This document shows positions 1,921 to 37,545 of a stretch of DNA of 37,545 nt, piece after piece. Position 1 is the stretch's first letter. The number at the start of each line of letters is the position of its first letter. The stretch lies in NCBI GenBank assembly GCA_003139095.1, contig PLHW01000061.1:1-37545 (forward strand), read 5' to 3'. Source of the stretch: Acidobacteriaceae bacterium (GTDB lineage: Bacteria > Acidobacteriota > Terriglobia > Terriglobales > Acidobacteriaceae). Both the position numbers and the translations under genes were made by a program. The notes below the pieces were generated by a model, which saw only the letters and a list, made by a program, of their open reading frames with translations, was not told where the DNA came from and ran no database searches.

Positions 1921-1922
1921 CG

Positions 1923-4518: not shown

Positions 4519-4579
4519 TGCTCTCTTTCAATGTTTTCCTGCAAAGATCGCCAAAATGTCGCGATCGCGAACCGCCTAC

Positions 4580-4732: not shown

Positions 4733-4734
4733 AG

Positions 4735-6237: not shown

Positions 6238-6279
6238 TGGTAAGCTCCACAGCACGAATCTTTCTTATTCGTTCTGTCG

Positions 6280-7437: not shown

Positions 7438-7445
7438 AAGCGCAC

Positions 7446-8213: not shown

Positions 8214-8223
8214 GGAACGCTCC

Positions 8224-11737: not shown

Positions 11738-11742
11738 AAAAT

Positions 11743-12060: not shown

Positions 12061-12079
12061 AGTTCACCCTCGGTGTTCG

Positions 12080-13726: not shown

Positions 13727-13766
13727 CAGCCAGCTTCCTCACAGGGGGAGGATTGGAGAAGGTGCT

Positions 13767-16853: not shown

Positions 16854-17101
16854 CAGGCAAATTGTCGAACAGACGAATTCTTCGAACCCTCTGATTTCAC
16901 AAATCCCTATATATCTTGATGTCGATTGACAGGGCCGGCAGAAACGCGATCATGTGCAGAAACGGGAATCGCTACGTCCGTTTGTAGGGGATTTTCACAA
17001 GCTGTGCCAACTTTCTCAGCTTATAGTCATGACTGTATCCATTAAGTCAAGAATGCACTTCATGGTTGCGCAAATTTTTCCGCCGGGAGATGAGAAGTTC
17101 C
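16854..17101 (+). other. Intergenic region before the first gas vesicle operon
   Basis: No gene was seen. A TTGACA hexamer lies at 16925-16930 but has no good -10 partner. A TATAGT hexamer lies at 17022-17027 without a -35 at normal spacing. The overlapping sequence AGTCATGACT (17025-17034) is a perfect 10-base palindrome. A promoter for the operon starting at 17102 probably lies here, but I cannot place it. Confidence 0.4.
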
Positions 17102-17572
17102 ATGCCTGAACCCGGCTCGACAAACCGAGTGGTTGTGCAAACTGGCCAGTTGAGCGTGCGCACCGTCCGTACCCTCCCGGGTTCGCCATTGGCGGTGTTT
17201 CGAGCCTGGACCACACCGTCGATTATGAAGAAGTGGTTTCATACGGGGCCGGAGTGGACTACCCCGACGGCGGAGGTGGATCTCCGGGTAGGCGGGCATT
17301 ACCGGATCGCCATGCAAGATGCGGCGGGCAAGACTTACTCCTACAGCGGGCGCTATCAGGAAGTCATCGAGCCGCGGAGCCTGGCTTTCACTTGGGCGCC
17401 CTATGGCGACTTAGTGGTCGAGACGCTGGTGGTTGTGCAGTTTCGCCCGGGTCTGGCCGGCTCGAACACTGAGTTAGGACTCAGCCATTTGGGCTTGCTT
17501 CACGAACAGATGCGCGACGACCATGAGGCCGTGTGGAACATTTACCTTGACCGGCTCGAGGAGACGCTATGA
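17102..17572 (+). CDS. SRPBCC (AHSA1-type) small ligand-binding domain protein
   Basis: A 156-residue helix-grip protein. The pattern SVRTVRTLPGSPLAVFRAWTTP..MKKWF, then VGGHYRIAM and SGRYQEVIEPRSLAFTW, and the C-terminal HEAVWNIYLDRLEETL is that of the activator of Hsp90 ATPase homologue 1-like family, which binds hydrophobic ligands. GAGAAG four bases upstream favours ATG 17102; an ATG at 17090 is also possible. It overlaps the next gene as ATGA. Its inclusion in a gas vesicle operon is unexpected; a sensing or chaperone role is only a guess. Confidence 0.8.
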   Translation: MPEPGSTNRVVVQTGQLSVRTVRTLPGSPLAVFRAWTTPSIMKKWFHTGPEWTTPTAEVDLRVGGHYRIAMQDAAGKTYSYSGRYQEVIEPRSLAFTWAPYGDLVVETLVVVQFRPGLAGSNTELGLSHLGLLHEQMRDDHEAVWNIYLDRLEETL

Positions 17573-18219
17573 GCCCGTCGCCCGAGGGCGCAGTTTCCCC
17601 CGGCAAGAGGGTTCTCATCTGCATCCCGATCATTCATACGCAAGCCGACATGGGGGGACTGAACGAGCCGATCCAGCGCTTGAAGGTCAAGAAGCTGGGG
17701 AAAAAAATCTGGGAGCGGAACCTCGAACTGCTGAACAATTTCTGGACCGAAATCGAGCAGGCCACGGAGAAACTTGCGCCTCCCTTCGAGAAGATCCGAC
17801 TTTATCAGGATGGGTTACCGGTGTGCGACCACGAACGGCAGATCGTTGCCGAGCTGGCGCAGGCGGGGAGCCGCAACCATCAACTGCTGCTGAAGCTGCA
17901 ACAAAAGGGCGCGCTCCTAATGGGCAGCGAGTCGGCCGAACTTTTGGTCGAAGAATATCAACTGGTGAAGCAGGTTTTTGCCGAAGGAATGACCAGAGGC
18001 TCCGCCCAGCCGGCGGCACAGGGGAAGACTTTGCAGGATTCGTTGCTCAAACGCCGTGACCAATTTATCGCCCGCCGCATCAGCCAGACGCTGCTTGCCG
18101 GGGAAACCGGTTTGCTCTTTGTCGGGGTGCTGCATGCCGTGGAGCCCTGGCTCGACAAGGATATCGAGGTGGTTCGCCCGGTTCGCCCCACCCTGAAGAG
18201 CGGCGTGAGACCATCGTGA
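17569..18219 (+). CDS. Unrecognised protein of the gas vesicle regulatory operon
   Basis: A 216-residue soluble protein, KRVLICIPIIHTQADMGGL near the N-terminus, then a long helical middle. The C-terminal segment RRDQFIARRISQTLLAGETGLLFVGVLHAVEPWL resembles the RD-x-x-A-x-x-I ... G-x-x-H arrangement of TraB-like domains, but this similarity is weak and by eye. It overlaps the SRPBCC gene by four bases and the sigma-54 activator gene as GTGA, so the three are co-translated. A Serratia gas vesicle locus also has unknown genes near its NtrC-type regulator; I cannot say whether this is one of them. Confidence 0.72.
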   Translation: MSPSPEGAVSPGKRVLICIPIIHTQADMGGLNEPIQRLKVKKLGKKIWERNLELLNNFWTEIEQATEKLAPPFEKIRLYQDGLPVCDHERQIVAELAQAGSRNHQLLLKLQQKGALLMGSESAELLVEEYQLVKQVFAEGMTRGSAQPAAQGKTLQDSLLKRRDQFIARRISQTLLAGETGLLFVGVLHAVEPWLDKDIEVVRPVRPTLKSGVRPS

Positions 18220-19649
18220 GCGCTGCGGGAAACAAAGTTCTGATCGTGGACGGCCAGGACGGCATTTGCGCCGTGTTATCGGAGTATTTGAAAAGCGAGG
18301 GAATGGTTCCCGTAGTGGCGCACACGGCAAAAGCCGCCCTGGAAAAAGTGCGCACCGGCGCGCCCGACTTGCTGATCGTGGATGCGGAACTGCCGGATAT
18401 GGGCGGCATCGAGGCGATGAAGGCGGCGAAGGATCTGGTCGAGGATCTGCCCACGATCGTGGTGGCGGGCAATCCCAATATCCGGGAGGCGGTCGCCGCC
18501 ATCCAGGCCGGGGCGCACGGCTACCTGGAGAAGCCACTGAAGCACCACGAGGTGCTGCGGGTGGTTTTTCGCGCCTTGAACGAGAGCGCGCTGCAACGCA
18601 AACTGCGGCGGCTGTCGGCGCAGGCGGAAGACGCGGCTTCTCTGCGCGAGTCGATGGGGCCGAGCCAGGCAGTGACGCGCTTGGCGGCCGAGGTGGCACG
18701 GGTCGCCAAGACCAACTTCAGCGTTTTGATTTTGGGAGAAACCGGGTCGGGAAAGGACCTGGTGGCGGGCGCCATCCACCGGCTGAGCGCGCGCGCACAC
18801 GGACCGTTCGTGGCGGTCGATTGCGGAGCCATTCCGGAAACGCTCATCGAGGGCGAATTGTTCGGCTACGAAAAAGGAGCCTTCACCGGGGCGGATAAGC
18901 AGAAGTCCGGTAAGTTCGAAATGGCGGGGGGTGGGACCTTCTTCCTCGACGAAGTCTGCAATATGCCGCTGGCGTCGCAAGCCAAACTTCTCCGCGTGTT
19001 GCAGGATAAAACCATTCACCGCATTGGCAGCACGCGTCCGATCGACGTGGACGTGCGGGTTCTGGCGGCCAGCAATCGGGATCTGCGCGAGTTGACGGAG
19101 GCCGAAGCGGGATCGTTCCGGCGCGACGTTTACTTCCGCTTGAACGAATTCACCATCCAAGTTCCGCCCTTGCGGGAGCGCCGCGAAGACATTTTGTACT
19201 TGGCGAAGCGCTTTGTCGATCTCACCAATGTCGAGTTGCAAAAAGAGGTGCGGAACTTCACTCAGCCGGCGGTCGATCGTCTGCTGGGCTACCCGTGGCC
19301 GGGCAACGTGCGGCAGCTTCGTTCCATGATCCGGCGGGCGGTGCTGCTGACCGAGGACACGATCGGGGAACAGCACCTGGCCTTCGACGATGCCCGGCCG
19401 GCGGCGCCGGGGGAGATCGAGGGCGCGCGGAGTGTCGAGATTCCGCCGCAGCGCGACTGTTCGCTGAAGGAAATCGTGCAGCACAACACGGCGCTCGTCG
19501 AGCGCCAGATCCTGAGCCACGTGTTGCGCCAAACCGGGGGCAATAAAGCCGAAGCCGCCCGCTTGCTGCACATCGACTACAAAACCATTCATCTGAAAAT
19601 CAAGGTGTATGGCTTGCAAACCCCGAGACACAGAAAAGGAGATTTCTAA
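18216..19649 (+). CDS. NtrC-family sigma-54 activator (GvrA-like)
   Basis: A 477-residue response regulator with three domains. The receiver domain has the phospho-acceptor Asp56 in LLIVDAELPD and the conserved lysine in EKPLKHHE. The AAA+ domain has Walker A GETGSGKD at residues 174-181, the sigma-54 contact loop GAFTGA at 221-226, a Walker B region GGTFFLDEVCNMP and R-finger region RRDVYFRLNEF. A Fis-type helix-turn-helix near the end reads GGNKAEAARLLHIDYKTIHLKIKVYGL. It starts with GTG at 18216 overlapping the previous stop. No histidine kinase is seen nearby. It probably activates the sigma-54 promoter at 24189-24204 (inference). Confidence 0.93.
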   Translation: MSAAGNKVLIVDGQDGICAVLSEYLKSEGMVPVVAHTAKAALEKVRTGAPDLLIVDAELPDMGGIEAMKAAKDLVEDLPTIVVAGNPNIREAVAAIQAGAHGYLEKPLKHHEVLRVVFRALNESALQRKLRRLSAQAEDAASLRESMGPSQAVTRLAAEVARVAKTNFSVLILGETGSGKDLVAGAIHRLSARAHGPFVAVDCGAIPETLIEGELFGYEKGAFTGADKQKSGKFEMAGGGTFFLDEVCNMPLASQAKLLRVLQDKTIHRIGSTRPIDVDVRVLAASNRDLRELTEAEAGSFRRDVYFRLNEFTIQVPPLRERREDILYLAKRFVDLTNVELQKEVRNFTQPAVDRLLGYPWPGNVRQLRSMIRRAVLLTEDTIGEQHLAFDDARPAAPGEIEGARSVEIPPQRDCSLKEIVQHNTALVERQILSHVLRQTGGNKAEAARLLHIDYKTIHLKIKVYGLQTPRHRKGDF

Positions 19650-20167
19650 TGGAAAAAGGAAAAGACAAAAGCGCGCAATTTGGCATGGGAGGCAATCTTG
19701 GAGGAATCCTGAAAGGCTTGGGAGACCTGGTGGAAAAACTCGGCGAACTGGAAAAACGCGGCGGGATGTCGGAGACCGGCGAGATTCGCGGAGAGGGCGA
19801 TAAGGTCCGCGGCATCTACGGATTTTCGGTGAAGGTGGGATTGGGTGACCAGGGGCCGCGCATCGAGCCCTTCGGGAACATCCGCCGCGACGCCGATTCC
19901 GGGCGGACCGAGGTCCAGGAAGTCCGCGAACCGATGGTGGACGTGTTCGAGGAAGAGGATCACGTTCTGGTACTGGCGGAGTTGCCCGGCATTGGCAAAG
20001 ACGACGTCAAGATCGAGTTGAAGGACGACGTCCTCACGATTGTGGCCGAACACGGCGAGAAAAAATATCGCAAGGAAGTTCTGCTGCCTTACGCTGTCGC
20101 GAAAGAAAAGACGCAGATTGCGTGCAACAACGGAGTGCTGGAAATCAAGTGCTTTAAACAGCCCTAG
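19649..20167 (+). CDS. gvpH: GvpH, Hsp20-family gas vesicle protein
   Basis: A 172-residue protein whose C-terminal half is an alpha-crystallin domain: EPMVDVFEEEDHVLVLAELPGIGKDDVKI, then LKDDVLTIVA and a closing NNGVLEIKC strand. The N-terminal half has the glycine-rich GGNLGGILKGLGDLVEKLGEL segment typical of GvpH proteins. It is thought to act as a chaperone or regulator during gas vesicle assembly. AGGAG precedes the ATG, which overlaps the previous stop codon by one base (TAATG). Confidence 0.88.
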   Translation: MEKGKDKSAQFGMGGNLGGILKGLGDLVEKLGELEKRGGMSETGEIRGEGDKVRGIYGFSVKVGLGDQGPRIEPFGNIRRDADSGRTEVQEVREPMVDVFEEEDHVLVLAELPGIGKDDVKIELKDDVLTIVAEHGEKKYRKEVLLPYAVAKEKTQIACNNGVLEIKCFKQP

Positions 20168-20185
20168 CGGGTGCGGGGAGGCGCC

Positions 20186-22309
20186 GTGAAAATGGACGCG
20201 AAAACGCTCAAGCTCAAAGTCAGCGAAGCGCTCAGCAAGGATGTGGGCCGGGCCTACGCCCGCATGGGGCCGGAAGACATGTCCGAGCTCGGGGTCGAGA
20301 TCGGCGGCATTGTGGAAGCCGCGGGCAAGACGAAAGCGGTCTGCAAGGCCATGCCGGCTTACAAGGAGATGCGCGGGCAATCTCGGATTCAACTGGACGG
20401 CCTGACCCGCGAGAATGCCGGAGTCGGGCTCGACGAGCACGTGCAGGTGCGCCCGATCGCCTGCCCGGCGGCGGAGCGGGTGGTGCTGGTTCCGACCAAC
20501 GTGGTTCCGTCCGAGCGCGACATGGCATACATTGGCAGCCGTCTGGACGGCCTGCCCGTGGCCGCCGAGAACCGCATCCGGGCGGTGCTGTTTGGAGCGC
20601 GCTGGGCGGATTTCAAAGTGGAAAGCACGGTGCCGAAGGGCCCGGTGATCATCGGCCCGGGGACCGAACTACTGATCTCGAAACTTAAGACGCAGCCGGT
20701 GGCCGAGCGGGCGATTTCCTACGAGGACATTGGCGGGCTGAGGCCGCACCTGATCCGAATCCGGGAGATGATCGAGCTGCCGCTGCGTTACCCCGAAGTT
20801 TTCGAGCGGCTGGGCATCGACGCGCCCAAGGGCGTGCTGCTCTACGGGCCTCCGGGATGCGGCAAGACGCTGATCGCGCGCGCCATCGCGCACGAGACGC
20901 AGGCGAATTTCTTTTCCGTGAGCGGACCGGAAGTGATCCACAAGTTTTATGGCGAAAGCGAAGCCCACCTGCGCAAGATTTTCGAGGAGGCTGGACGCAA
21001 GGCGCCGAGCATTATCTTTCTCGACGAACTCGATGCCATCGCGCCCCGCCGCGACCAGGTTGTCGGCGAAGTGGAGAAGCGGGTGGTCGCGCAGCTGCTG
21101 GCGCTGATGGACGGGCTGGCGAAACGGAACAAGGTGATCGTGATTGGCGCCACCAATCTTCCGAACGTGCTCGATCCCGCCTTGCGCCGTCCGGGGCGTT
21201 TTGACCGCGAGATATCCATTCCGATTCCCGACCGGCACGGACGCCGCGAGATCCTGGAGATTCACAGCCGCGGCATGCCGCTCGAGGAAAAAGTCGATCT
21301 GGTGCGCCTCGGCGACATCACCCACGGCTTTGTCGGGGCGGACCTGGAGGCGCTGTGCCGCGAATCGGCCATGCTCTGTCTGCGCCGCATCATGCCCGAC
21401 GTGGACTTTGGCCTGGCGCGCATCCCCTACGACCAACTGGCCAAGCTGGAAGTCAAGATGGACGACTTCCTCTCGGCGTTGCAAGCCATCGAGCCTTCGG
21501 CGATGCGTGAGGTGTTTGTCGAAGTCCCCAACGTAAGCTGGGAGGATGTCGGAGGGCTCGCCGAGACCAAGGCCCGGCTGATCGAAGCGGTCGAGTGGCC
21601 GCTCGAATATCCCGGCCTCTTCACCGAGGCGGGGATTCGTCCGCCGAAAGGCATTCTGCTCTCGGGACCGCCCGGTTGCGGGAAGACGCTCCTTGCCAAA
21701 GCCATTGCCAGCGAAACGGGCGTCAACTTCATTTCCATCAAAGGCCCGGAATTGCTTTCGAAGTACGTCGGCGAATCGGAGAAGGCGGTGCGCGAAATTT
21801 TCCGTAAGGCGAGACAGGCTGCGCCCTGCATCATCTTCTTCGACGAGATCGACGCGCTGGTACCGAGCCGGAGCGGGGGCGGTTCCGATTCGCACACTTC
21901 GGAGCGCGTCCTCAGCCAGTTTCTTACCGAGCTGGACGGAGTGGAAGAGTTGCGCGGAGTGCTGGTGCTCGGAGCGACCAACCGGGTGGATATGCTGGAC
22001 CCGGCCATTGTCCGTCCCGGCCGCTTCGACGAGATCGTGGAAATTCCGCTGCCCGACGAAACCGGGCGCGGCGAAATTTTCCGCATCCAGTTGCGCGGCA
22101 AACCTGTGAGCGCGGAAGTCAGCGCGCTGAATTTGGGATCGCGAAGCGAAGGCTACAGCGGAGCCGAAATTGCCGCCGTGTGCCATCAGGCGGCGCTGGC
22201 GGCCATTCGGCGCGCGGTTCGTGCCGGCGAAGGGCCGGCGGGCGGACACCACAAAGTCGGGATTGAGGCAGCCGATCTGGACGCGGCGTTCGAAAGCATT
22301 CGCCGGTAA
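20186..22309 (+). CDS. CDC48/p97-like double AAA ATPase in the gas vesicle operon
   Basis: A 707-residue hexameric-type unfoldase. An N-terminal CDC48 N domain (about residues 5-170) is followed by two AAA modules. D1 has Walker A GPPGCGKT at 221-228, Walker B IIFLDELDAIAPRR and RRPGRFDREI; D2 has GPPGCGKT at 494-501, IIFFDEIDALVPSR and VRPGRFDEIVEI. Both modules look catalytically complete. Such proteins are typical of archaea and appear in some bacterial gas vesicle loci. GGGGAGG at 20175-20181 supports the GTG at 20186 or the ATG at 20192. A role in building or remodelling vesicle proteins is inference. Confidence 0.9.
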   Translation: MKMDAKTLKLKVSEALSKDVGRAYARMGPEDMSELGVEIGGIVEAAGKTKAVCKAMPAYKEMRGQSRIQLDGLTRENAGVGLDEHVQVRPIACPAAERVVLVPTNVVPSERDMAYIGSRLDGLPVAAENRIRAVLFGARWADFKVESTVPKGPVIIGPGTELLISKLKTQPVAERAISYEDIGGLRPHLIRIREMIELPLRYPEVFERLGIDAPKGVLLYGPPGCGKTLIARAIAHETQANFFSVSGPEVIHKFYGESEAHLRKIFEEAGRKAPSIIFLDELDAIAPRRDQVVGEVEKRVVAQLLALMDGLAKRNKVIVIGATNLPNVLDPALRRPGRFDREISIPIPDRHGRREILEIHSRGMPLEEKVDLVRLGDITHGFVGADLEALCRESAMLCLRRIMPDVDFGLARIPYDQLAKLEVKMDDFLSALQAIEPSAMREVFVEVPNVSWEDVGGLAETKARLIEAVEWPLEYPGLFTEAGIRPPKGILLSGPPGCGKTLLAKAIASETGVNFISIKGPELLSKYVGESEKAVREIFRKARQAAPCIIFFDEIDALVPSRSGGGSDSHTSERVLSQFLTELDGVEELRGVLVLGATNRVDMLDPAIVRPGRFDEIVEIPLPDETGRGEIFRIQLRGKPVSAEVSALNLGSRSEGYSGAEIAAVCHQAALAAIRRAVRAGEGPAGGHHKVGIEAADLDAAFESIRR

Positions 22310-22331
22310 GCTTCCGGAATCGGCCGACGCG

Positions 22332-23150
22332 ATGGACAACAGCGAACTTGCGCTCTACTTATTCTGCTTTGCGCGCTCGGACCGAGTGCGGGAAGTCCAT
22401 GGGCCGGAGGCGGGCGGCCCCGGCTCTCTGGCGCTGCTTCGCTATGCTCCGGACCTGTGCGCGGTAACGGGCAAAGTCCGGCGCGAGGAGTTCGCCGGGC
22501 CGGAGGCGGAACTTAACCTGCAACAGCTGTCGTGGGTGGGGCCGCGCGCCTTGCGCCATGAGGCCGTGATTGAAGAGGTGATGGCGAGTTCTCCGGTGCT
22601 GCCGGCGCGCTTCGGCACGCTGTTTTCGTCGGCCGAGGCGCTGGCCGAATTCGCCGGCCGGCATCGCGAGACGATTACGCAATTTCTCGATCGGGTAGCC
22701 GGGCACGGAGAGTGGTCGGTGAAGGGCGTATTCGACCGCCCGCAAGCCGAGGCGTCGCTGATCTCCGCCCCGCTGGCCGCGCAACGGGAGCAGCTTTCGG
22801 CGTTGCCTCCCGGCACGCGCCATTTCGCCGAACAGCGCCTGCGCCGCGACATCGAGCGGGAATTGACGGCGTGGCTGGAGAGCGCCTGTCGCGCCCTGGC
22901 AGGCGAACTCGCAAGCCACGCGGCGGATTTCCGCGAATGCGCGGCCGGGCCAGCCGCGCCGTCCGGAAACGACGCCAGCGAAGTTCTGAATTGGGCTTTT
23001 CTGCTGCCGAACTCAGCCGTCGCCCGGTTCCAGGAGTTAGTCGAGCGGGCAAACCGGCATCATGGCTCGCGTGGATTGCGGCTCGAACTTTCCGGTCCCT
23101 GGCCACCCTATCGTTTTGTTCCCGCCTTATCCGCGGCTGGCGCCCCATGA
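22332..23150 (+). CDS. GvpF/L-family gas vesicle protein, first copy
   Basis: A 272-residue protein. Family features are the N-terminal strand ALYLFCFAR, the central block HEAVIEEVMASSPVLPARFGTLFSS and the C-terminal LELSGPWPPYRF. GvpF/L proteins are accessory proteins that bind GvpA and coat or initiate the vesicle. The start at 22332 has no strong ribosome binding site. It follows the AAA gene by 22 bases and overlaps the next gvpF/L gene as ATGA. Confidence 0.87.
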   Translation: MDNSELALYLFCFARSDRVREVHGPEAGGPGSLALLRYAPDLCAVTGKVRREEFAGPEAELNLQQLSWVGPRALRHEAVIEEVMASSPVLPARFGTLFSSAEALAEFAGRHRETITQFLDRVAGHGEWSVKGVFDRPQAEASLISAPLAAQREQLSALPPGTRHFAEQRLRRDIERELTAWLESACRALAGELASHAADFRECAAGPAAPSGNDASEVLNWAFLLPNSAVARFQELVERANRHHGSRGLRLELSGPWPPYRFVPALSAAGAP

Positions 23151-23878
23151 GCTACTTACTCTATTGCATTTTTCGCAGCCCGCCGCAATTGGAACGGGAA
23201 GCAGTTACCGGCGTCGGCGCGCAACCAGTCTCAGTAATCGAACACGATGGCCTGGGCGGCGCGATTTCCGAACTGCGCAAAGCGGACTCCGATCCCGATG
23301 TCGGGAGCGTCCTCGCCTACGAGAGCGTGGCGGAAACTTTCTTCCGCCAGCGCACGATCATTCCCATGCGCTATGGCTGCGCGGTTCACAATCGCCGGGA
23401 CTTCGGTCCCTTGATCGACAAACATCGCAAGGAGTGCGACACGCTCCTGCGGCGCCTCGAAGGCTTGGCGGAGATGGCCATCCAGGTATCAGCCAGCGGC
23501 GGCGAGGAGGACGACGAGATCTGCCTGGCGGCAATCCCGCAAACCCGCTGGCCGGACTCGAATCGGTCGGGCGCTTCGTATCTCTCCGGCAAAAAATTGT
23601 ATTACCGCGGCGCCGACCGCAAAGTCGAACGGCAAAACGAATTCGCGCAGGCCGTCTGCCGCCCACTAGCCGGGTTGTTTGTCGAGCGCAAAGTGGAACT
23701 GCCTTCTCGTGCAACGTCTCTCCTGATGCTTTACTTCCTGGTGCCGCGCTCCTCGGTCGACGCCTTTCGCGAGACCAGCCGCCGCGCTCTTCAGAATCAG
23801 TTCGAAGACGTGCGCATCAGCGGACCTTGGCCACCTTACAACTTCGCCACCTTCTCGGACGACGGGCGATTCTCGTAA
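23147..23878 (+). CDS. GvpF/L-family gas vesicle protein, second copy
   Basis: A 243-residue protein, MSYLLYCIFRSP at the start, with YESVAETFFRQRTIIPMRYG as the central family block and VRISGPWPPYNFATF at the end. It is clearly related to its neighbour and to the third copy at 26847. It has a slightly different N-terminal half and may serve another GvpA-type partner. The ATG overlaps the previous stop codon (ATGA). It ends the first gas vesicle operon; a 379-base gap follows. Confidence 0.88.
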   Translation: MSYLLYCIFRSPPQLEREAVTGVGAQPVSVIEHDGLGGAISELRKADSDPDVGSVLAYESVAETFFRQRTIIPMRYGCAVHNRRDFGPLIDKHRKECDTLLRRLEGLAEMAIQVSASGGEEDDEICLAAIPQTRWPDSNRSGASYLSGKKLYYRGADRKVERQNEFAQAVCRPLAGLFVERKVELPSRATSLLMLYFLVPRSSVDAFRETSRRALQNQFEDVRISGPWPPYNFATFSDDGRFS

Positions 23879-24257
23879 ACAGCCGATCGCCGGGCCGCGC
23901 CGCTTCCCAAACCGGCTGCGATTCCCGGTCCCGAACAACGCGAAGCCCGCAGCCCATAGCCGATTTCAGATACTGCTCCCAGCCACGCACCATTTCCCTC
24001 ATTCTAGAGGCGCGCGCACTATGGAATGAATTCCGCAATGGCCAGCGAAGCGCGGCCCCATCCATTCGCAAAATGACCTTCGTAATGTCCTAAGACGGGC
24101 TGGAACTTGTTCATAAGAATGACTGCCACTTCAGCCGAGTTAGTTAGTCATCCAAAGAACTCCGATATCCACAATCGGGCCGTCCGCTGGGAACCTGACT
24201 TGCACTGTTGTTGGCGGGGAACGGCTATAAGTTCCTTTTCAGAAAAGGAGAAACAAT
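23879..24257 (+). promoter_or_regulatory. Upstream control region of the gvpA operon
   Basis: No gene was seen in these 379 bases. It holds the sigma-54 promoter at 24189-24204. About 165 bases upstream of it lies a GGAAT-GA-ATTCC inverted repeat (24023-24034), a candidate enhancer-like site for the NtrC-type regulator, though a single short repeat is weak evidence. The 5' untranslated part ends with AAAAGGAG, a strong ribosome binding site for gvpA. Confidence 0.55.
24189..24204 (+). promoter_or_regulatory. Sigma-54 (-24/-12) promoter of gvpA
   Basis: GGGAACCTGACTTGCA has GG at 24190-24191 and GC at 24202-24203, exactly ten bases apart as sigma-54 requires. The -12 part TTGCA is a full match and the -24 part agrees at G, G, A and C. 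Transcription would start near 24215, about 43 bases before gvpA. The activator encoded at 18216 is of the matching type. Confidence 0.72.
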
Positions 24258-24476
24258 ATGGCGAAAGTCCAAAAATCGACCGACTCTTCCAGCTTAGCGG
24301 AAGTGGTCGATCGAATTCTTGACAAAGGTATCGTAATCGACATTTGGGCAAAAGTTTCGCTGGTCGGGATCGAGCTGCTGTCAGTCGAAGCCCGGGTAGT
24401 GATCGCCTCCGTCGAGACGTACCTGAAGTACGCGGAAGCCATCGGTCTGACGGCCAGCGCGGCAGCTCCAGCTTAG
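24258..24476 (+). CDS. gvpA: GvpA, major gas vesicle shell protein
   Basis: A 72-residue hydrophobic protein that forms the ribs of the gas vesicle wall. The conserved core [53 protein letters not shown] is almost complete in family terms, with two beta strands flanked by helices. The C-terminal tail is short and alanine-rich. An AAAAGGAG site lies before the ATG. As the first gene after the sigma-54 promoter, followed by a strong hairpin, it would be made in excess over downstream genes, as expected for the shell protein. Confidence 0.97.
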
Positions 24477-24501
24477 CGCATGGTTGGGATGACCAAAAAC
24501 C

Positions 24502-24530
24502 AAGTGGGGGGGGCGGTTCCTGGCCCCCTT
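24502..24530 (+). terminator. Strong GC hairpin after gvpA, possible attenuator
   Basis: A run of eight G (24506-24513) faces CCCCC (24524-24528), with AAG at 24502-24504 and TT at 24529-24530 extending the stem around a bulged T. There is no T-run, so it is more likely an RNA-stabilising or partial termination structure that raises gvpA message over the downstream genes than a full terminator. Confidence 0.5.
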
Positions 24531-24587
24531 CTCCTGGCCAGATAGGGGAACTGTAGGAGCGGTGGAAACAACTTGAGGAGAATCGCA

Positions 24588-24881
24588 ATGGGAAGCTTGA
24601 CGAAAGACATGACTCGGCTGTGCGACGAGATCCAGACGCTGCGAACCGAACGCCACGAACTGAACAAGAGGCTGGCCGACACGACCAAGGCCCGTCAGGT
24701 CGAGGTGCTGGAAACCCGCGCGGCATTTACCGGAGCGCGAAATTGGAAAGCGGAGAGCGCGCACACCTCCCGCCACAACTTTGTGGATCAGCTGAAACAA
24801 ACCGTAGCCGGAGAGGGAAAATCGCTGCGCGACGATCTGGCGGCGGCGCGGCGTGTCTGGGGCAAACTGCGCGCCACCTAG
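24588..24881 (+). CDS. Small helical protein in the gvpC position, copy 1
   Basis: A 97-residue, highly charged, alpha-helical protein. GAGGAG lies eight bases before the ATG at 24588. Its first 45 residues align with those of the next gene: SLT..x..DEI...R.ER..L...L...T..R...VL. The segment RLADTTKARQVEVLETRAAF also recalls the repeat unit of cyanobacterial GvpC (L-x-x-T-T-x-x-R-Q then A-F). GvpC stiffens the vesicle from outside. The homology to GvpC is by eye and not proven; position after gvpA and before gvpN agrees with it. Confidence 0.7.
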   Translation: MGSLTKDMTRLCDEIQTLRTERHELNKRLADTTKARQVEVLETRAAFTGARNWKAESAHTSRHNFVDQLKQTVAGEGKSLRDDLAAARRVWGKLRAT

Positions 24882-24939
24882 CGCAGGCTGTTCCTAACTG
24901 CCGGTCGGAGCAAACCGTGGAAGAAAGACAAATAGGATC

Positions 24940-25380
24940 ATGGCAGACACCGTTTCTAAGAGCCTGACCCGGGTTCGCGACGAGATTCTCGTCTGGCGCG
25001 GGGAACGCGAACGATTGCTTTCGGGCCTGCAACGGAAGACCCAGGATCGCAGGCGCGTCGTGCTTCGGATGCTCGCGCAGTTCGCCCTGGACCTCGCCGA
25101 AATCGCGCGGCGGCGAAGAAACATGCGGAGGCTATTTCCGCTCAGTCCCAGTGTTAAGGGGACGGCGTTCCGGCAAGAGTTCTCCGGCTTCGGTTCGGCG
25201 GCGGCGAAGGGCGACGCTCGATTGCGCCAAGAGCGGAAGGCGGCAACGCAAAAACACCGCGAGGAATATCCCCGCCCAAAACCGGAAGCCGTGGAACCAT
25301 GCCGGGAAACGGCCCCAGTCCATACGAAAATCGAGCGCGGACGGCGGCGCAAAGGCGTCCGCCATCAGCACCGGCCCTGA
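24940..25380 (+). CDS. Small basic helical protein in the gvpC position, copy 2
   Basis: A 146-residue protein that shares its N-terminal helix with the gene before it (SLTRVRDEILVWRGERERLLSGLQRKTQDRRRVVL). The rest is rich in arginine, lysine and proline and looks disordered, unlike copy 1. The pair seems to come from a duplication in which the second copy kept the helix and gained a basic tail. AGGA lies directly before the ATG at 24940, rather close. I do not recognise a family beyond the possible GvpC-like repeat. Confidence 0.6.
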   Translation: MADTVSKSLTRVRDEILVWRGERERLLSGLQRKTQDRRRVVLRMLAQFALDLAEIARRRRNMRRLFPLSPSVKGTAFRQEFSGFGSAAAKGDARLRQERKAATQKHREEYPRPKPEAVEPCRETAPVHTKIERGRRRKGVRHQHRP

Positions 25381-25403
25381 ATTATGAAAGGAGTTCAAAC
25401 CCA

Positions 25404-26474
25404 GTGTCGTCTCCCGAAGTAGCCACCTACCCAATTGCCGATCCCATTCCCGCCGTAAGACCGCCCGCCCCGGACGGCGGTTCGGAAACCGCGTTAGAGG
25501 CCGGGGTGACGATGCCGGCGGAAGATATCGACGTTGTCCCCGAAGCCAGCGACTCGTTCGTTCTAACTCCCTATGTCGAAAGTCTTACCGCCCGTGCGCT
25601 CACTTACATGGACGTGGGCTACGCGCTGCACTTCGCCGGACCGGCGGGAACGGGCAAGACGACGCTGGCCCTGCATGTGGCCAGCAAGCGCGGCCGCCCC
25701 GTCGTTCTCATTCACGGCGACGACGAGTATGCCAGTTCCGACCTGGTGGGTAAGGATTCCGGCTATCACAAATCGAAGCTGGTCGACAATTACATTCATT
25801 CCGTGGTCAAGACGGAAGAGAGCTTGAGCCGAATCTGGGAAGACCAGCGGCTGACTACCGCCTGCGTCAAGGGCTATACGCTCATCTACGACGAATTCAA
25901 CCGCTCGCGGCCCGAAGCCAACAACGTCCTGTTGAGCGTGCTCGAGGGCAAGATTCTCAACTTGCCGAGTCTGCGCCGCTCGGGCGAGGGCAATCTGCAC
26001 GTGCACGAGGATTTTCGCGCCATTCTCACCTCCAACCCGGAAGAGTATGCGGGGGTACACAAGACGCAGGACGCGCTACTCGACCGCCTGATTACCATCA
26101 ACCTGGGGCACCTGGACCGCGAGACCGAGATCGCCATTGCCATGGCGAAGTCGGGCGTCGGGCGCGCCGACGCCGAAGCCATCGTCGATATCATCCGCGA
26201 GCTCCGAGGCGTGGGCGTCAACAACCATCGTCCCACCATTCGCGCAGGCATCGCCATAGCCCGTATTCTCGCCTACCACAAGGGATCGGCCCAGCTTGGC
26301 GACTCGACCTTTGAAACCATCTGCCACGATGTGCTTAACACCGATACCGCAAAAATTACCCACCAGGGCCAATCGCTAATGGTCGAAAAAGTGCAAGAGA
26401 CTATTCGCAACGTCTGCAGTGAACAAGCCGGACGCGGCCGGGAGCGCCGCCGCCGGGAACGCGAAAGGAAGTAA
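25404..26474 (+). CDS. gvpN: GvpN, AAA+ ATPase of gas vesicle assembly
   Basis: A 356-residue MoxR-like ATPase. Walker A GPAGTGKT is at residues 79-86; the GvpN signatures GDDEYASSDLVG, IYDEFNRSRPEANNVLLSVLEGKILNLP and LTSNPEEYAGVHKTQDALLDRL follow. The start is taken as GTG 25404 with AAAGGAG ten bases upstream; in-frame codons further up overlap the preceding gene and have no site. The 50 residues before the ATPase are a proline-rich linker longer than in many GvpN. It ends in a very basic tail (RGRERRRRERERK). GvpN is needed for vesicle growth in other bacteria. Confidence 0.94.
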   Translation: MSSPEVATYPIADPIPAVRPPAPDGGSETALEAGVTMPAEDIDVVPEASDSFVLTPYVESLTARALTYMDVGYALHFAGPAGTGKTTLALHVASKRGRPVVLIHGDDEYASSDLVGKDSGYHKSKLVDNYIHSVVKTEESLSRIWEDQRLTTACVKGYTLIYDEFNRSRPEANNVLLSVLEGKILNLPSLRRSGEGNLHVHEDFRAILTSNPEEYAGVHKTQDALLDRLITINLGHLDRETEIAIAMAKSGVGRADAEAIVDIIRELRGVGVNNHRPTIRAGIAIARILAYHKGSAQLGDSTFETICHDVLNTDTAKITHQGQSLMVEKVQETIRNVCSEQAGRGRERRRRERERK

Positions 26475-26475
26475 C

Positions 26476-26778
26476 ATGCCCATCCCACTTCGAGGTCTGC
26501 GGACCATTCGCACGTTGGCGGGGAAAGTGGATCTGGTCACGGTGCCGCATCGGGCGCACCTGCAGATCGCCTGCCTCGAACTCGAAAAGGCCCGGCGCAC
26601 AACTGAGCGCACGAGCGCCCTTGGCCGATTGGCGGAACTCGACGCCCGGCTGCAGGAAATCGAATCCGAGCAGTCGCACCTGATGCAGGCGCTGGCGGAC
26701 CGAAAAGGGAAAGCCTCGGAACCCAGGGCAGTCCGCCCGTCGCGGCGGCGCGGCCAGCCGTTCAAAATCCGTTACTGA
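26476..26778 (+). CDS. Small coiled-coil protein in the gvpV position
   Basis: A 100-residue protein with a central helical, heptad-like stretch (LELEKARRTTERTSALGRLAELDARLQEIESEQSHLMQAL) between a short basic N-terminus and a basic C-terminus. AAGGAAG precedes the ATG and gvpN ends one base before it. The order gvpN - this gene - gvpF - gvpG is that of the Serratia locus, where the gene is gvpV (from memory). Sequence similarity to that protein is not something I can confirm. Confidence 0.68.
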   Translation: MPIPLRGLRTIRTLAGKVDLVTVPHRAHLQIACLELEKARRTTERTSALGRLAELDARLQEIESEQSHLMQALADRKGKASEPRAVRPSRRRGQPFKIRY

Positions 26779-26846
26779 GAACATGCCGCGGCTGGCATCC
26801 ATTCCGGCTGCCGCCCAGTGGGCCCGTTGCGGCTATGGAGGAAGAC

Positions 26847-27650
26847 GTGAGTACCCCTCGCACCCCGACTATGAAATCCGCCGAGGACCACCCGCTGGCG
26901 CGGGCCGCGGCCCGACAGAAGATCTATCTGTACGCCATCGTGGCCGGCGGCGAAGACAGGCCTTACCCGGCAACCGGCATCAACCAAGGCAAAGTGTATG
27001 CCATTTCGGCTGGGCGAGTTGCCGCCGTGGTGAGCGACGTGGCCGGCGAAAACGTACGTCCGGAACGCGCCCGGCTGGCGGCCCATCACGAAGTCTTGAA
27101 GAAGGTTATGGCGGAGACCACGCCGCTGCCCATGTCGTTTGGCATCGTCGCCGACAGCTCGGCCGCGGTTCGTCGCATGCTCGCGCGCAATGAGGAAGTT
27201 CTTCTCGATCAGCTGGCGCACGTTGCCGGCAAGGTCGAAATGGGACTGCGGGTTACCTGGGATGTGGCCAACATCTTCGAGTATTTCGTGAACGTTCATC
27301 CCGAACTCAGGCTGGAGAGGGACCGGCTGCTCGGCTCCAATTGCCAGCCTACGCAGGAACAGAAAATTGAAGTGGGCAGGATGTTCGATCGCCTGCTGAA
27401 CGACGACCGCGAAGCGCTCGCCGACCTGGCCACGGGAATTTTCGCCAGCCACGAGTGTGAAACCAAGCGCCTGAAATGCCGCAACGAACGCGAGGTGACG
27501 AACCTGGCCTGCCTGGTTAAGCGCGAGGCCGTGCCGAAGTTCGAGGCCGCCGTGTTCGAGATCGCGAAGCAGTTCGACAACAACTTCGCGCTCGACTACA
27601 ACGGGCCGTGGGCGCCCCACAACTTCGTCAGCGTCGACCTGGAGCTTTAG
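26847..27650 (+). CDS. gvpF: GvpF/L-family gas vesicle protein, third copy
   Basis: A 267-residue protein. YLYAIVAGGED begins the N-terminal domain; HHEVLKKVMAETTPLPMSFGIVA is the central block; KFEAAVFEIAKQFDNNFALDYNGPWAPHNF the C-terminal family end. It is less similar to the two copies at 22332-23878 than these are to each other. GGAGGA lies just before the GTG at 26847, while ATG 26835 overlaps that site. GvpF is located at the gas-facing side or initiation complex and binds GvpA. Confidence 0.9.
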   Translation: MSTPRTPTMKSAEDHPLARAAARQKIYLYAIVAGGEDRPYPATGINQGKVYAISAGRVAAVVSDVAGENVRPERARLAAHHEVLKKVMAETTPLPMSFGIVADSSAAVRRMLARNEEVLLDQLAHVAGKVEMGLRVTWDVANIFEYFVNVHPELRLERDRLLGSNCQPTQEQKIEVGRMFDRLLNDDREALADLATGIFASHECETKRLKCRNEREVTNLACLVKREAVPKFEAAVFEIAKQFDNNFALDYNGPWAPHNFVSVDLEL

Positions 27651-27894
27651 AGTGGTTCTCGATTGGCTGGGCCGGGAAAGGCACGAACGGGAGGGGCAGG
27701 CCCCAGCCGTGCCGCCAGACGTGGCGACGGTCTTCGGTTTTACAGGCTGCGAGAAAACTCGATTTTGCGCTTGATTTTGCGTGGTGCAGCGTTTTCGCTG
27801 CGATAACAGTATTGCTTTGAATGCGGCTCTAGGGGCCGAGGGTATGCACTCTACGACATCGCCAGAACCGCTGTAGCCACCGGAAGAGGATGGG
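27651..27894 (+). other. Gap before gvpG with a small hairpin
   Basis: No gene was seen in 244 bases, the only long gap inside the second gas vesicle operon. It contains a perfect 6-base stem GCAGCG-TTTT-CGCTGC at 27786-27801. No sigma-54 element with correct GG-to-GC spacing was found. It may hold a secondary promoter or be the remnant of a lost gene. Confidence 0.4.
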
Positions 27895-28137
27895 ATGTTC
27901 ATCGTCGACGACGTCCTGATGGCGCCCGCGCGCGGGCTGTTGTGGATCTTTCAGGAGATTCATCGCGCGGCGCAGGAAGAGATGGTGAACGACGCGGAAT
28001 CGATCACTGCCGAACTCAGCGCGCTCTACATGAAGCTGGAAACGGGGAAGCTGACCGAAGAAGAGTTTGCCGCGGAAGAGAAAATGCTGTTGGAGCGGCT
28101 AGACAAGATACACAAGCCCGGCAGACGGATCCGATAG
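27895..28137 (+). CDS. gvpG: GvpG, small gas vesicle accessory protein
   Basis: An 80-residue helical protein with the typical GvpG start FIVDDVLMAPARGLLWIFQEIHRAAQEE and the later segment KLETGKLTEEEFAAEEKMLLERLDKI. GvpG interacts with GvpF/L and GvpA during nucleation of vesicles (family knowledge). A GAGGATGGG site precedes the ATG. Confidence 0.9.
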   Translation: MFIVDDVLMAPARGLLWIFQEIHRAAQEEMVNDAESITAELSALYMKLETGKLTEEEFAAEEKMLLERLDKIHKPGRRIR

Positions 28138-28199
28138 CAGTCGCGCAGGCGGGAAGCAGCGGACGGAACTCGGCTGTCAAAACTGGGAAGCGAGGGGTA

Positions 28200-30176
28200 G
28201 TGGAGGGTAACGCGGGAAGCGCGAGTGACGCGGGAGTGCCACGTTTTTTGGCCGCGGCCGGCTTGCAGCTCCTCATCTTCGGCGGTAAAGGCGGCGTGGG
28301 AAAAACTACCTGCGCCACGGCCGCCGCGTTGCGCCTGGCCGCGGGTTCGCCCGAGTCGTCGTTCTTGCTGGTCTCGACCGATCCGGCGCACTCGCTCGCC
28401 GACAGTCTGGCTGGCCTTGTTCCCCCCCGGAACCTGCAAGTCCTTGAACTCGACCCGCAGGAATACCTGCTCGATTTCAAGAAAAAACACAGCGCCAAAT
28501 TGCGCGCGATCGCCTCCCGTGGAACCTTTCTCGACGACGAGGAAATCAACCGCTTCCTCGATCTTTCCCTTCCCGGTCTCGATGAACTTATGGCCTTCCT
28601 CGAAATATCGGCGTGGGTGGAGAAGCGCGTCTACGACTGCATTGTGGTCGATACCGCCCCCAGCGGTCACACGCTGCGGTTGCTCACGATGCCCGAGTTT
28701 CTGCGGAAATGGCTGGCCATGCTGGAGACTCTGCTGGCCAAGCACCGCTACATGAAGTGGGCGTTTGCCCGCTCCCGCGACCCCGACGAACTCGACGCCT
28801 TTCTAGAGGAACTGACCGTCTCCGTAAAACAGATGGAGGCCGTTCTCCAGGATTCGGCCCACTGTAGTTTTGTTCCCGTCATGCTGGCCGATGTTATGAG
28901 CCTGCGCGAGACAGTGGCGATCGTAAAAGAGGCCGACCGCCTTCTGCTTCCCATTGGCGAAATCGTTGTCAACAAACTGCTTCCCGAAAGTCATTGTCCG
29001 GTTTGTTGCGAAGAACGCGGTCTGCAAGGTCGCGAGTTGCGAGATCTCTTTCTCCACACTTCGCTGACCCGGTTCGCGCTCTGGGGAATCCCGCTGCGTG
29101 CCGAGGAAGTCCGCGGTCAGGTTGCCTTACAGTCCTTCTGGGAAGACGCCCGGCAAATCCGCGAGCCGCCCACAGCCACGCCGGCATCAAAGGTGTCTCC
29201 TTCCGTCGAGGTGGATGCGGGTGTTTCCTTGCCTCCGCGCGGCACTACTCTCCTTATCTTCGCGGGCAAAGGCGGCGTGGGAAAAACCACTCTGGCCTGC
29301 GCCACCGCCCTGCATTTGGCCGAGCATTCCCCAAACCGGAAAGTGCTGCTCGTTTCCGTCGGCTCCGCCCACTCGCTCTCCAATTGCCTCGAACTTCCCG
29401 TCGGCCCGCATCTCGCCCGGGTGACCACTGGAGTTACCGCCGTCGAGATCGATTCCGAGGCGGAATTCGAGGCGCTGAAAGAACAGTACGCCGAAGATAT
29501 CGAGAAATTCCTGGAATCGGTTTCCAGCAATTTCGATTTGGCCTTCGACCGCGACGTGCTCGAACGGACTCTCGACCTGTCTCCTCCCGGTCTGGACGAA
29601 GTGATGGGCTTGACCCGGGTGATGGCGTTTCTCGCCTCTGGCGAATTCGACACATTAGTCCTCGATTCGGCCGCCACGGGACATCTCATCCGCCTCCTTG
29701 AGCTTCCCGAAATCATCGACCAATGGCTCAAAGCCTTCTTCGACCTGTTTTTGAAGTATCAGCAGATTTTCCGTCTTACCGGCTTTTCTCAAGAACTGGT
29801 TTCCATGTCGAAGAACCTTAAGAAACTTCGCCAACTGCTGAACAATCCCGAGCAATCTTCGCTCTACGCGGTAAGCATTCCCACCGTGATGGCTTTTGAG
29901 GAAACGCGCGACTTACTAACTGCCTGCGCGCGCCTGAGTATCAACGTGCCCGGCATATTTATCAACCTTATGACGCCTCCCGGCGATTGCGTCTTGTGCT
30001 CGGCGATGAACCGCCGGGAAGCGGCGATCTGCGGGAGATTCAAGCAGAGTTTTGAAGGCAAGATTGGCGTAATCTACCGGCGCGGCGAAATCCGCGGCCT
30101 GCATTGGCTCGCCTGTCTTGGAGACGCGCTCTATCAATGCAAGCACGCTGGAGCAAGAGGCGCCCATGCCCATTGA
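28200..30176 (+). CDS. Tandem ArsA/Get3-like ATPase of the gas vesicle operon
   Basis: A 658-residue protein made of two ArsA/Get3-type halves. P-loops GGKGGVGKTT (28-37) and GKGGVGKTT (356-364) are both intact. The first half keeps the switch motifs STDPAHS and VVDTAPSGHTLRLL; the second has VGSAHS and VLDSAATGHLIRLL, so the catalytic aspartate of the first switch is replaced by glycine. Each half has a Get3-like CxxC (CPVC and CVLC). No arsenical-binding cysteine pattern is evident. Get3 proteins deliver hydrophobic tail-anchored helices, so a targeting role for very hydrophobic GvpA is attractive (inference). The start GTG 28200 is uncertain; GTG 28236 is also possible. The end overlaps the next gene. 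Confidence 0.85.
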   Translation: MEGNAGSASDAGVPRFLAAAGLQLLIFGGKGGVGKTTCATAAALRLAAGSPESSFLLVSTDPAHSLADSLAGLVPPRNLQVLELDPQEYLLDFKKKHSAKLRAIASRGTFLDDEEINRFLDLSLPGLDELMAFLEISAWVEKRVYDCIVVDTAPSGHTLRLLTMPEFLRKWLAMLETLLAKHRYMKWAFARSRDPDELDAFLEELTVSVKQMEAVLQDSAHCSFVPVMLADVMSLRETVAIVKEADRLLLPIGEIVVNKLLPESHCPVCCEERGLQGRELRDLFLHTSLTRFALWGIPLRAEEVRGQVALQSFWEDARQIREPPTATPASKVSPSVEVDAGVSLPPRGTTLLIFAGKGGVGKTTLACATALHLAEHSPNRKVLLVSVGSAHSLSNCLELPVGPHLARVTTGVTAVEIDSEAEFEALKEQYAEDIEKFLESVSSNFDLAFDRDVLERTLDLSPPGLDEVMGLTRVMAFLASGEFDTLVLDSAATGHLIRLLELPEIIDQWLKAFFDLFLKYQQIFRLTGFSQELVSMSKNLKKLRQLLNNPEQSSLYAVSIPTVMAFEETRDLLTACARLSINVPGIFINLMTPPGDCVLCSAMNRREAAICGRFKQSFEGKIGVIYRRGEIRGLHWLACLGDALYQCKHAGARGAHAH

Positions 30177-30468
30177 CACCCCCAACATCGACGTCAGAAT
30201 GAGAGCCGGTGTCGCCGCCGCTCCCCAACTTATGCTCGCCGACTCGCGTCAGCCTTCGATCTGCGAGGTGCTCGACCGCGTGCTGAATAAGGGAGCCGTC
30301 ATCGACGGAGAAGCGACGATCTCGGTCGCCGGCATCGACCTGGTTTACCTGGGACTGAAGCTGATACTCACGTCCATCGAGACGGCGCGCCGCGAGACCC
30401 GGTTCGGAGCGGCGGAATTCGGCCCGCCCGCAAATGTTGCGAAGGAGAACTTCGATGGCGGCTTCTGA
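30166..30468 (+). CDS. GvpA/GvpJ-family minor shell protein, second copy
   Basis: A 100-residue member of the GvpA family. The core SICEVLDRVLNKGAVIDGEATISVAGIDLVYLGLKLILTSIE carries an N-terminal extension of about 30 residues and a longer tail than GvpA at 24258. GvpJ/GvpM-type minor proteins help nucleation. The ATG overlaps the end of the ArsA-like gene by eleven bases, and its end overlaps gvpK. Confidence 0.88.
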   Translation: MPIDTPNIDVRMRAGVAAAPQLMLADSRQPSICEVLDRVLNKGAVIDGEATISVAGIDLVYLGLKLILTSIETARRETRFGAAEFGPPANVAKENFDGGF

Positions 30469-30835
30469 AGCACCGCGCATGGAGAGTGCGACGCAAAGCG
30501 ATTTCGCCCAAGTGATCGGCACCGGCACTCTGCTGCCCGCGTCCGCTACTCCTGAGGGCCTGCAGAGCCGTTCCCGCCGCTTGAACTTCGACGCCAACGG
30601 CCCCAAGAATGGACTGGGCCAACTGGTTCTGACTCTAGTCAAGCTCTTGCACGAATTGCTGGAGCGGCAAGCCATCCGCCGTGTCGAATCCGGTTCGCTT
30701 AGCGAGTGTCAGACTGAAGAATTGGGCCTGGTCCTCATGCAACAGGCACAGGAAATTGAACGCCTCCGAAAAGAATTCGGCTTAGAAGAGAACGACCTTA
30801 ACCTCGATCTGGGTCCGCTCGGAAGGCTTCTCTAA
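30455..30835 (+). CDS. gvpK: GvpK gas vesicle protein
   Basis: A 126-residue protein with the GvpK segment RLNFDANGPKNGLGQLVLTLVKLLHELLERQAIRRVESGSLS and ELGLVLMQQAQEIERLRKEFGL near the end. It is essential for vesicle formation in other bacteria; its mechanism is unclear. GAAGGAG lies seven bases before the ATG at 30455. It overlaps the GvpA/J gene by fourteen bases. Confidence 0.93.
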   Translation: MAASEAPRMESATQSDFAQVIGTGTLLPASATPEGLQSRSRRLNFDANGPKNGLGQLVLTLVKLLHELLERQAIRRVESGSLSECQTEELGLVLMQQAQEIERLRKEFGLEENDLNLDLGPLGRLL

Positions 30836-30844
30836 GGGAACATT

Positions 30845-31168
30845 ATGGTGCAACAGCGCAACATGTCTCACGCGGTCGAGTCTTCCACACTGGCGGACGT
30901 TCTCGAGCGTGTTCTCGACAAAGGAATCGTGATCGCGGGCGACATTCGGGTGAAACTCGTCGACATCGAACTGCTCTCGATTCAAATTCGTCTGGTCATC
31001 TGTTCCGTCGATAAAGCGAAGGAGATGGGGATGGATTGGTGGGTGAATAACCCGATATTCCGTCAAGAGAAGCAGCACGAAATCGCGCCGGCGTCGCTCG
31101 CCAGCCTGGAAGAGAGATTGGCCTCGTTAGAAGCCACTCTGAGCAAAGCCGCAGCGCAGTCGAGTTGA
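30845..31168 (+). CDS. GvpA-family protein, third copy (GvpS/GvpJ-like)
   Basis: A 107-residue protein with the GvpA core [52 protein letters not shown], followed by a 35-residue tail ending in a predicted coiled coil ([15 protein letters not shown]). The tail separates it from the main shell protein and suggests a capping or minor role. AGGGAA precedes the ATG. It is the last gene of the operon. Confidence 0.88.
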
Positions 31169-31224
31169 CGTGCCGACGTCCAGCGTATTGAAAACGGGCT
31201 GGGAGACATCACCACAGCCGGTCA

Positions 31225-32898: not shown

Positions 32899-32994
32899 GG
32901 AGTTTATTGAGGTTTTGACGATTACCGTGTTGGCAACAAATTCCGCCCACACGCGCGAAAGCGACAGCTTGGTCCTGCAACTCGACGGCATGGC

Positions 32995-33987: not shown

Positions 33988-34062
33988 GATAAGTTCCTTC
34001 GCGTGGGCGCCGTTGATCCAGTGACGCTCCTATGAGTTCGAATAGTCCGCCCGCCGTCGAGC

Positions 34063-34800: not shown

Positions 34801-34909
34801 AAGACCCCATTTCATGGCATTCGCGCCTTCGGCGGCTAAGGCCGTAATGATTGAATGCTCTATCGGCGCGAAAGCGCTACTCCGCCCAATTGCACACTCC
34901 CGTCATCGC

Positions 34910-37457: not shown

Positions 37458-37545
37458 GCGGCTAACGCGCGAAGAAGCGCCATCGTCTGGAGGCAATTAA
37501 CGACATTTCTGGGGATTGTGCCTGGATGACGCTAGTGCTTTTTCG

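Follow-up and report, generated by a model that had tools for sequence, protein, structure and literature searches.

Does the direct neighborhood of gas vesicle (gvp) genes and genes for sulfite respiration (dsr) in an acidobacterial genome reflect cooperation of both traits, or an event that occurred in one lineage? This question is raised by contig PLHW01000061.1 of Acidobacteriaceae bacterium (GenBank assembly GCA_003139095.1), which was analyzed over its whole length of 37,545 bp and is referred to here as the window. The genome to which it belongs (G000) has 5.53 Mb in 75 contigs and is 98% complete and 2.6% contaminated. A previous sequence-only reading of the window had proposed that buoyancy is linked to sulfite respiration. 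The analysis revealed that the gvp island, at 16.94 to 31.19 kb, is real, complete in gene content and under purifying selection, and that its adjacency to dsr genes is at present unique to the G000 contig. The likely explanation is a self-contained, Serratia-like gvp island that a minority of these bacteria carry and that in G000 alone came to lie beside a separately conserved dsr island, through one landing or rearrangement, with the co-occurrence of both gene sets reflecting a common habitat.

Protein families were identified using Pfam cut-offs, NCBIfam cut-offs and sequence alignment with Protein Data Bank (PDB) entries. Homology to the island of G127, a genome of the same genus, places the extent of the gvp island at positions 16939 to 31192, slightly beyond the interval proposed before, and all of its genes are on the forward strand. 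Pfam cut-offs were passed by three Gas_vesicle proteins (PF00741), three GvpL_GvpF proteins, GvpG, GvpK, and an Hsp20/GvpH protein; together with GvpN, recognized by NCBIfam, the gvp genes named in the sequence-only reading were thus all present. Absent from that reading were an NtrC-type regulator, a CDC48-type ATPase, a double ArsA ATPase, and the unnamed open reading frames (ORFs) starting at 17569, 24588, 24940, and 26476.

The shell protein GvpA (24258 to 24476) scored 133 bits with NCBIfam NF006874 (cut-off 100) and aligned over 69 residues with the Anabaena shell structure 8gbs (E 1.3e-30) and over 63 residues with the Bacillus shell structure 7r1c (E 7.7e-26). No match to GvpC was obtained among the island proteins in Pfam or NCBIfam, and the place of gvpC is occupied by an unnamed coiled-coil-like protein (24588 to 24881), which is kept in eight other islands and has a weak profile match to a Methylocella protein at the corresponding place. 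An unnamed ORF (24940 to 25380), found only in G127, G157 and, weakly, G109, precedes the AAA ATPase GvpN (25299 to 26474; TIGR02640, 334 bits with a cut-off of 267), in which homology begins at about 25404. In the place of gvpV lies a small unnamed protein ending in FKIRY (26476 to 26778), also kept in eight other islands, whose relatives in Methylocella (40%, 3e-17) and Spartinivicinus (36%, 2e-8) also follow gvpN; it is possibly the counterpart of GvpV. In the Serratia gene order, gvpC and gvpV occupy the places of these two proteins. The third GvpF/L copy (26835 to 27650) and GvpG (27895 to 28137) follow, and then a two-domain ArsA/GET3-type ATPase supported by Pfam and NCBIfam, whose ORF spans 27942 to 30176 and whose true start is probably inside this ORF, after gvpG. 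The island closes with a second GvpA-family protein of the GvpA2/J/S type (30166 to 30468; Pfam, and PDB 7r1c with E 2e-7), GvpK (30434 to 30835), and a third GvpA-family protein (30845 to 31168). For the second and third GvpA-family proteins, all NCBIfam scores for J, S, and M were below the cut-offs.

The first part of the island begins with an AHSA1-like gene (17102 to 17572; Pfam), found beside the island in G000 and G127 only, among the islands compared. It is followed by an unnamed gvp-associated protein (17569 to 18219) with a weak C-terminal likeness to TraB/PrgY/GumN (Pfam E 0.0023, below cut-off). Eleven other genomes have relatives of this protein in their gvp clusters or next to them, as does Methylocella tundrae (38%, 2e-38), and a PDB sequence search with it gave chance-level matches only. 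Next are a GvrA-like NtrC-type activator (18216 to 19649) with Pfam receiver, sigma-54 interaction and Fis-type domains and the GAFTGA motif, the Hsp20/GvpH-like protein (19649 to 20167; Pfam HSP20 and GvpH), the CDC48-type double AAA ATPase (20171 to 22309; Pfam), and GvpF/L copies 1 (22332 to 23150) and 2 (23147 to 23878).

Judging from its genes, this flotation gene set looks complete and working. The regulatory half, consisting of the NtrC-type activator, Hsp20, CDC48, and two GvpF/L proteins, would bring about sigma-54-dependent transcription from gvpA. GvpA would form the shell, the other GvpA-family proteins, GvpF/L, GvpG, and GvpK would serve in nucleation and GvpN in growth, and ArsA, CDC48, and Hsp20 may act as ATPases and chaperones of assembly; these roles of the single genes are suggested by analogy with Serratia genetics. 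A sigma-54-like element of the form GG-N10-GC lies before gvpA at positions 24189 to 24204 of the forward strand and matches the consensus at 9 of 11 positions. Eight of the nine islands have an element with at least 8 matching positions in the 150 bp before gvpA, as compared to 7.5% of random 150-mers of this genome. About 90 bp upstream of the AHSA1-like gene are kept in G127, as expected for a promoter that belongs to the island.

This layout recurs, slightly changed, in seven other acidobacterial genomes with eight islands in total, namely, G127 (same genus, as is G208, mentioned below), G157, G582, G109, G055, and G626 with two islands (all of the same family), and G423 (another family). 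The G423 island is without ArsA, one G626 island ends at a contig end, and the CDC48 gene of G582 is in two pieces. G626 thus carries two gvp islands (L083/L084 and L085) and dsrA in one genome. Another island, in G596:C11 (L086), contains gvpN, the small protein, and gvpF, after which the contig has no more gvp genes; it lies near a DDE transposase and looks decayed. The ratio of nonsynonymous to synonymous substitution rates (dN/dS) was below 1 for 18 of 18 genes measured against G127 (range, 0.02 to 0.53) and for 16 of 16 measured against G582. Values against G127 were 0.02 for gvpA, 0.07 for CDC48, and 0.08 for gvpN, and the highest, 0.53, was obtained for gvpF2 from an overlong ORF. In the island tree, G000 groups with G127, next come G157 with G582, then G109 with G055, and then G626; there was no conflict with the rpoB tree where both were resolved, with G157 unplaced in the latter and G127 represented by only 12% of the columns. 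A recent foreign import of the island was considered and rejected: in tetranucleotide composition, the gvp half and the remaining genome correlated at 0.65, and 15 of the genome's own 14-kb stretches gave values of 0.47 to 0.86, a result compatible with exchange between relatives.

That the host makes vesicles, and that it benefits from them through its position in wet soil, is what these genes lead us to infer. The island might instead form no flotation vesicles in nature or serve another purpose, as discussed for Streptomyces coelicolor in PMC4982088. Named relatives are recorded from soil, bog, and palsa, where flotation would be of limited use, and the G596 island is cut short near a transposase. 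We nevertheless consider this improbable in view of the purifying selection, the presence of GvpN, which is missing in S. coelicolor, and the match to the genes required in Serratia with the exception of gvrB.

The island is located 248 bp after the siroheme gene, measured from the end of the latter to the ATG at 17102, which agrees with the distance of about 250 bases given by the sequence-only reading. Homology to the dsr region of G208 ends at 16842 and homology to the gvp region of G127 starts at 16939, so that the junction between dsr-related and gvp-related sequence, a homology break, lies at 16854 to 16938. A scan of the junction detected no terminator and one promoter-like sigma-70 site (0.7 expected). 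In the other three genomes with both gene sets (G055, G109, and G626), dsr and gvp are on separate contigs and adjacent in none: in G109 these contigs are 458 and 201 kb long, which would separate the loci by more than 100 kb even with the contigs end to end; in G055 the contigs measure 44 and 85 kb, and in G626 dsrA is 19 kb from its contig end. None of 12 other dsr regions compared contained gvp genes.

An adjacency seen on this contig only, a 37.5-kb piece of a 75-contig assembly, with a homology break within about 100 bp, could be an assembly artifact in which two contigs or two strains were joined. The window ends in 23 bases (37523 to 37545) that equal, reversed, the first 23 of G000:C50, which indicates that the contig stops at a shared repeat and that repeats limit this assembly. 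However, the window contains no N, no 13-mer at the junction is repeated within it, and the 131-bp junction had no other match in the compared loci, a total of 0.33 Mb from outside the window in this 5.5-Mb genome. In addition, both halves are nearest to same-genus genomes, and the composition of all three parts is within the genome's own range. A mis-join is therefore quite improbable.

Most likely, the adjacency to dsr results from a single landing or rearrangement in this lineage. The genes that flank the gvp island are unlike in each genome compared: a M28 peptidase and a CoA-activase-type gene in G127, and trypsin-PDZ, thaumatin-domain, CstA, type II secretion ATPase, TonB receptor, trehalose, glycosyl hydrolase, and glycosyl transferase genes at other islands. 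The longest exact match between the island ends was 9 bases, giving no flanking direct repeats and no sign of a transposon-like insertion, and no tRNA gene was found. To its right, at 31261 to 34815, the window contains genes for an AMP-ligase, a ketoacyl-synthase-III-like protein, and a short-chain dehydrogenase; the second has a 73% identical homologue at G000:C41. No clean empty site was found, because none of the dsr regions compared has these right-side genes next to cysG and a homologue of one of them is found elsewhere in G000 (C41) and in G203, G204, G207, and G208.

The dsr island itself (538 to 16033) is mostly on the reverse strand, was recognized by NCBIfam, and has a gene order kept in relatives. 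It comprises genes for a cysteine desulfurase (538 to 1920, forward strand) and, on the reverse strand, for cobB/dsrN-like (1923 to 3533), SUMT (3595 to 4518), and, by a weak match, YeiH-like (4735 to 6255) proteins, dsrP, dsrO, dsrJ, dsrK, and dsrM (6280 to 11354), an unnamed gene (11264 to 11854), a dsrL-like NAD(P)-binding gene (12080 to 13726), dsrB (13767 to 14846), and dsrA (14843 to 16033); dsrMKJOP, dsrB, and dsrA passed the NCBIfam cut-offs. Divergent from dsrA is the siroheme gene (16236 to 16853, forward strand; CysG N-terminal type, with Pfam NAD_binding_7 and Sirohm_synth_M), which adjoins dsrA in 11 of 12 other dsr regions compared, the exception being G124. On the cysG side, the three genomes closest in dsr (G208, G179, and G207) differ in their neighbors; other neighbors are common to G200 and G212 and partly to G055, G109, and G155, which speaks against free mobility of the dsr island in all genomes. 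DsrA of G212 (L045) and G200 (L047) is about 79% identical to that of the window, compared with 90 to 93% for other same-genus genomes, which suggests two dsr lineages in one genus. The term sulfite respiration, used in the sequence-only reading, may be too narrow: G000 also contains aprA (G000:C31:72710-74560; 849 bits), so that the host may reduce sulfate besides sulfite. At E 1e-40, aprA was absent from nine other genomes checked, five of which have dsrA.

We then assessed how frequently both gene sets occur. GvpN above the cut-off was present in 2 of 24 genomes of the genus, in 5 of 200 and 8 of 398 genomes in two draws from the family, and in 10 of 396 in a draw from the phylum; the gvp island is thus uncommon in the phylum and found in few of these Acidobacteria. 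The sequence-only statement that gas vesicles are not a known trait of most Acidobacteriota has to be qualified, since gvp genes of acidobacterium Ellin345 were published in 2010 (PMC2963123). DsrA was present in 6 of 24 genomes of the genus, in 11 of 200 of the family above the cut-off, and in 32 of 396 of the phylum draw at E 1e-60, 29 of these above the cut-off. Both sets were found in the genus in G000 only, in the phylum draw in G000, G055, and G109 (0.8 genomes expected; hypergeometric probability, 0.039), and in the family in these three and G626. The phylum draw also included seven gvp-containing genomes from other families, none with dsrA; six of these have diverged gvp clusters and the seventh, G423, the G000-type layout.

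Several observations weigh against a self-contained island whose position is incidental. In the family, dsrA was present in 4 of 8 genomes with gvp and in 12 of 211 without (Fisher, 0.0011), and by genus in 3 of 5 with and 3 of 74 without (p = 0.0024); the family test was based on 219 genomes tested for both, its statistics ignore kinship, and the search for gvp covered more genomes than that for dsrA. Furthermore, a second gvp island, that of G055, also adjoins a sulfur-type respiratory module. On the same strand and 0.66 kb past the island, family scans revealed genes for DUF3373, PhsA/PsrA-like, Fe-S, cytochrome b, ArsR-type, DsrM-like, and DsrK-like proteins (positions 1173 to 10116 of L043, G055:C61:5000-24999). 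The molybdoenzyme is nearest to PhsA (504 bits with a cut-off of 694), and the DsrM- and DsrK-like genes reached 320 bits with a cut-off of 400. This DsrK-like protein is 77 to 93% identical to that of a gene that adjoins the siroheme gene in the G109, G155, G200, and G212 dsr regions, a gene not there in G055's own dsr region. With respect to regulation, G127 is without a good sigma-54-like element before gvpA (6 of 11 positions), further elements of score 8 precede the NtrC gene and, by 242 bp, gvpG, and the gvpA upstream regions compared are related rather than independent. Because of these further score-8 elements, the element before gvpA is suggestive of sigma-54 control and no proof of it.

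Chance alone may not explain the neighborhood, since the co-occurrence in the family is above expectation and G055 has its own sulfur module. Gas vesicles and sulfur respiration could cooperate by positioning the cell vertically at a redox boundary, and could have been kept or gained together until the islands ended side by side. We regard such a selected neighborhood as unlikely. Direct adjacency to dsr is seen in one of four genomes with both sets, and no sulfur genes were recognized at the other islands, where 26 of 60 flank ORFs were scanned (within one set of 20, three matched no family) and dsr proteins were searched for also by tblastn. No sigma-54-like element was present in the 250 bp searched before dsrA, 7 of 10 gvp-containing genomes of the phylum draw are without dsrA, the co-occurrence test ignores the tree, and the PhsA-like and DsrK-like proteins are below the equivalog cut-offs. 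Modules of the sulfur type flank gvp in two of nine genomes with flanks examined, a pattern that was noticed post hoc and carries no null comparison. The proposed link between buoyancy and sulfite respiration is partly supported: gvp and dsrA co-occur in the family above expectation, whereas the adjacency recurs in none of the genomes compared, dsr and gvp showed no common promoter type, and the seven gvp-containing genomes found outside the family are free of dsrA.

In a bolder version, gas vesicles in this family would go hand in hand with inorganic sulfur respiration: gvp genes would be kept mainly by sulfite and sulfate respirers and settle repeatedly beside sulfur modules (dsr in G000, and the PhsA/PsrA-like and DsrMK-like module in G055), and buoyancy would let soil and peat cells follow the boundary between sulfate and oxygen while the water table rises and falls. 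We regard this version as unlikely; in the explanation that we prefer, that of a self-contained island, the co-occurrence of dsr and gvp would be the outcome of a common habitat. The looser association of gvp with sulfur respiration within the family is a hint worth noting, and one that can be checked. Independently of it, a complete gas vesicle island is documented here in Acidobacteria, with some named relatives recorded from bog, palsa, and soil. Among the papers listed by our literature search, none dealt with gas vesicles in Acidobacteria that have dsr genes.

The gvp genes are of a known kind and resemble a proteobacterial, Serratia-type cluster. In PMC4982088, the cluster of Serratia sp. 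ATCC 39006 is described with two gene groups, led by gvpA and by the NtrC-like gvrA, with three GvpA-family and three GvpF proteins, G, K, N, and H, and with sigma-54 control of gvpA, for which the window has a suggestive element. The order of the two groups is inverted in the window, as it is in Desulfomonile tiedjei and Psychromonas ingrahamii (PMC4982088), and its NtrC-like gene is preceded by the 17569 and AHSA1 genes, yet is the gvrA-like head of the second group. As compared to Serratia, the window adds CDC48, the double ArsA, AHSA1, and the TraB-like unnamed protein, and has no proven GvpC. Required in Serratia are A1, F1, G, A2, K, A3, F2, F3, gvrA, and gvrB, and mutants in gvpN and gvpV form small bicones (PMC4982088). 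By family or place, the window has counterparts of all 10 required genes except gvrB; family scans recognized neither gvrB nor gvrC, the likeness to Serratia being judged from gene families and gene places.

Further clusters complete this comparison. As in the ArsA-linked gvp clusters that PMC2963123 describes, including that of acidobacterium Ellin345, a two-domain ArsA lies among the gvp genes; the Ellin345 cluster, compared by its published description, has two L/F genes plus J, K, and M, and the window has more genes. On the dsr side, dsrAB and dsrMKJOP occur in the window as in the acidobacterial loci of PMC6018796 and PMC10591310, and the words vesicle and gvp are absent from both main texts. 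The plasmid cluster of Methylocella tundrae (NZ_LR536451, L184) shares a sigma-54 regulator, gvpA, the coiled-coil protein, gvpN, the small protein after gvpN, GvpF/L, GvpG, and Hsp20, as well as relatives of the 17569 and CDC48 proteins. It differs in being a plasmid record and in its gene order, with a GvpN about 57% identical to that of the window. The 17569 and 26476 proteins accompany gvp genes in both Acidobacteria and Methylocella, and they may be general assembly factors.

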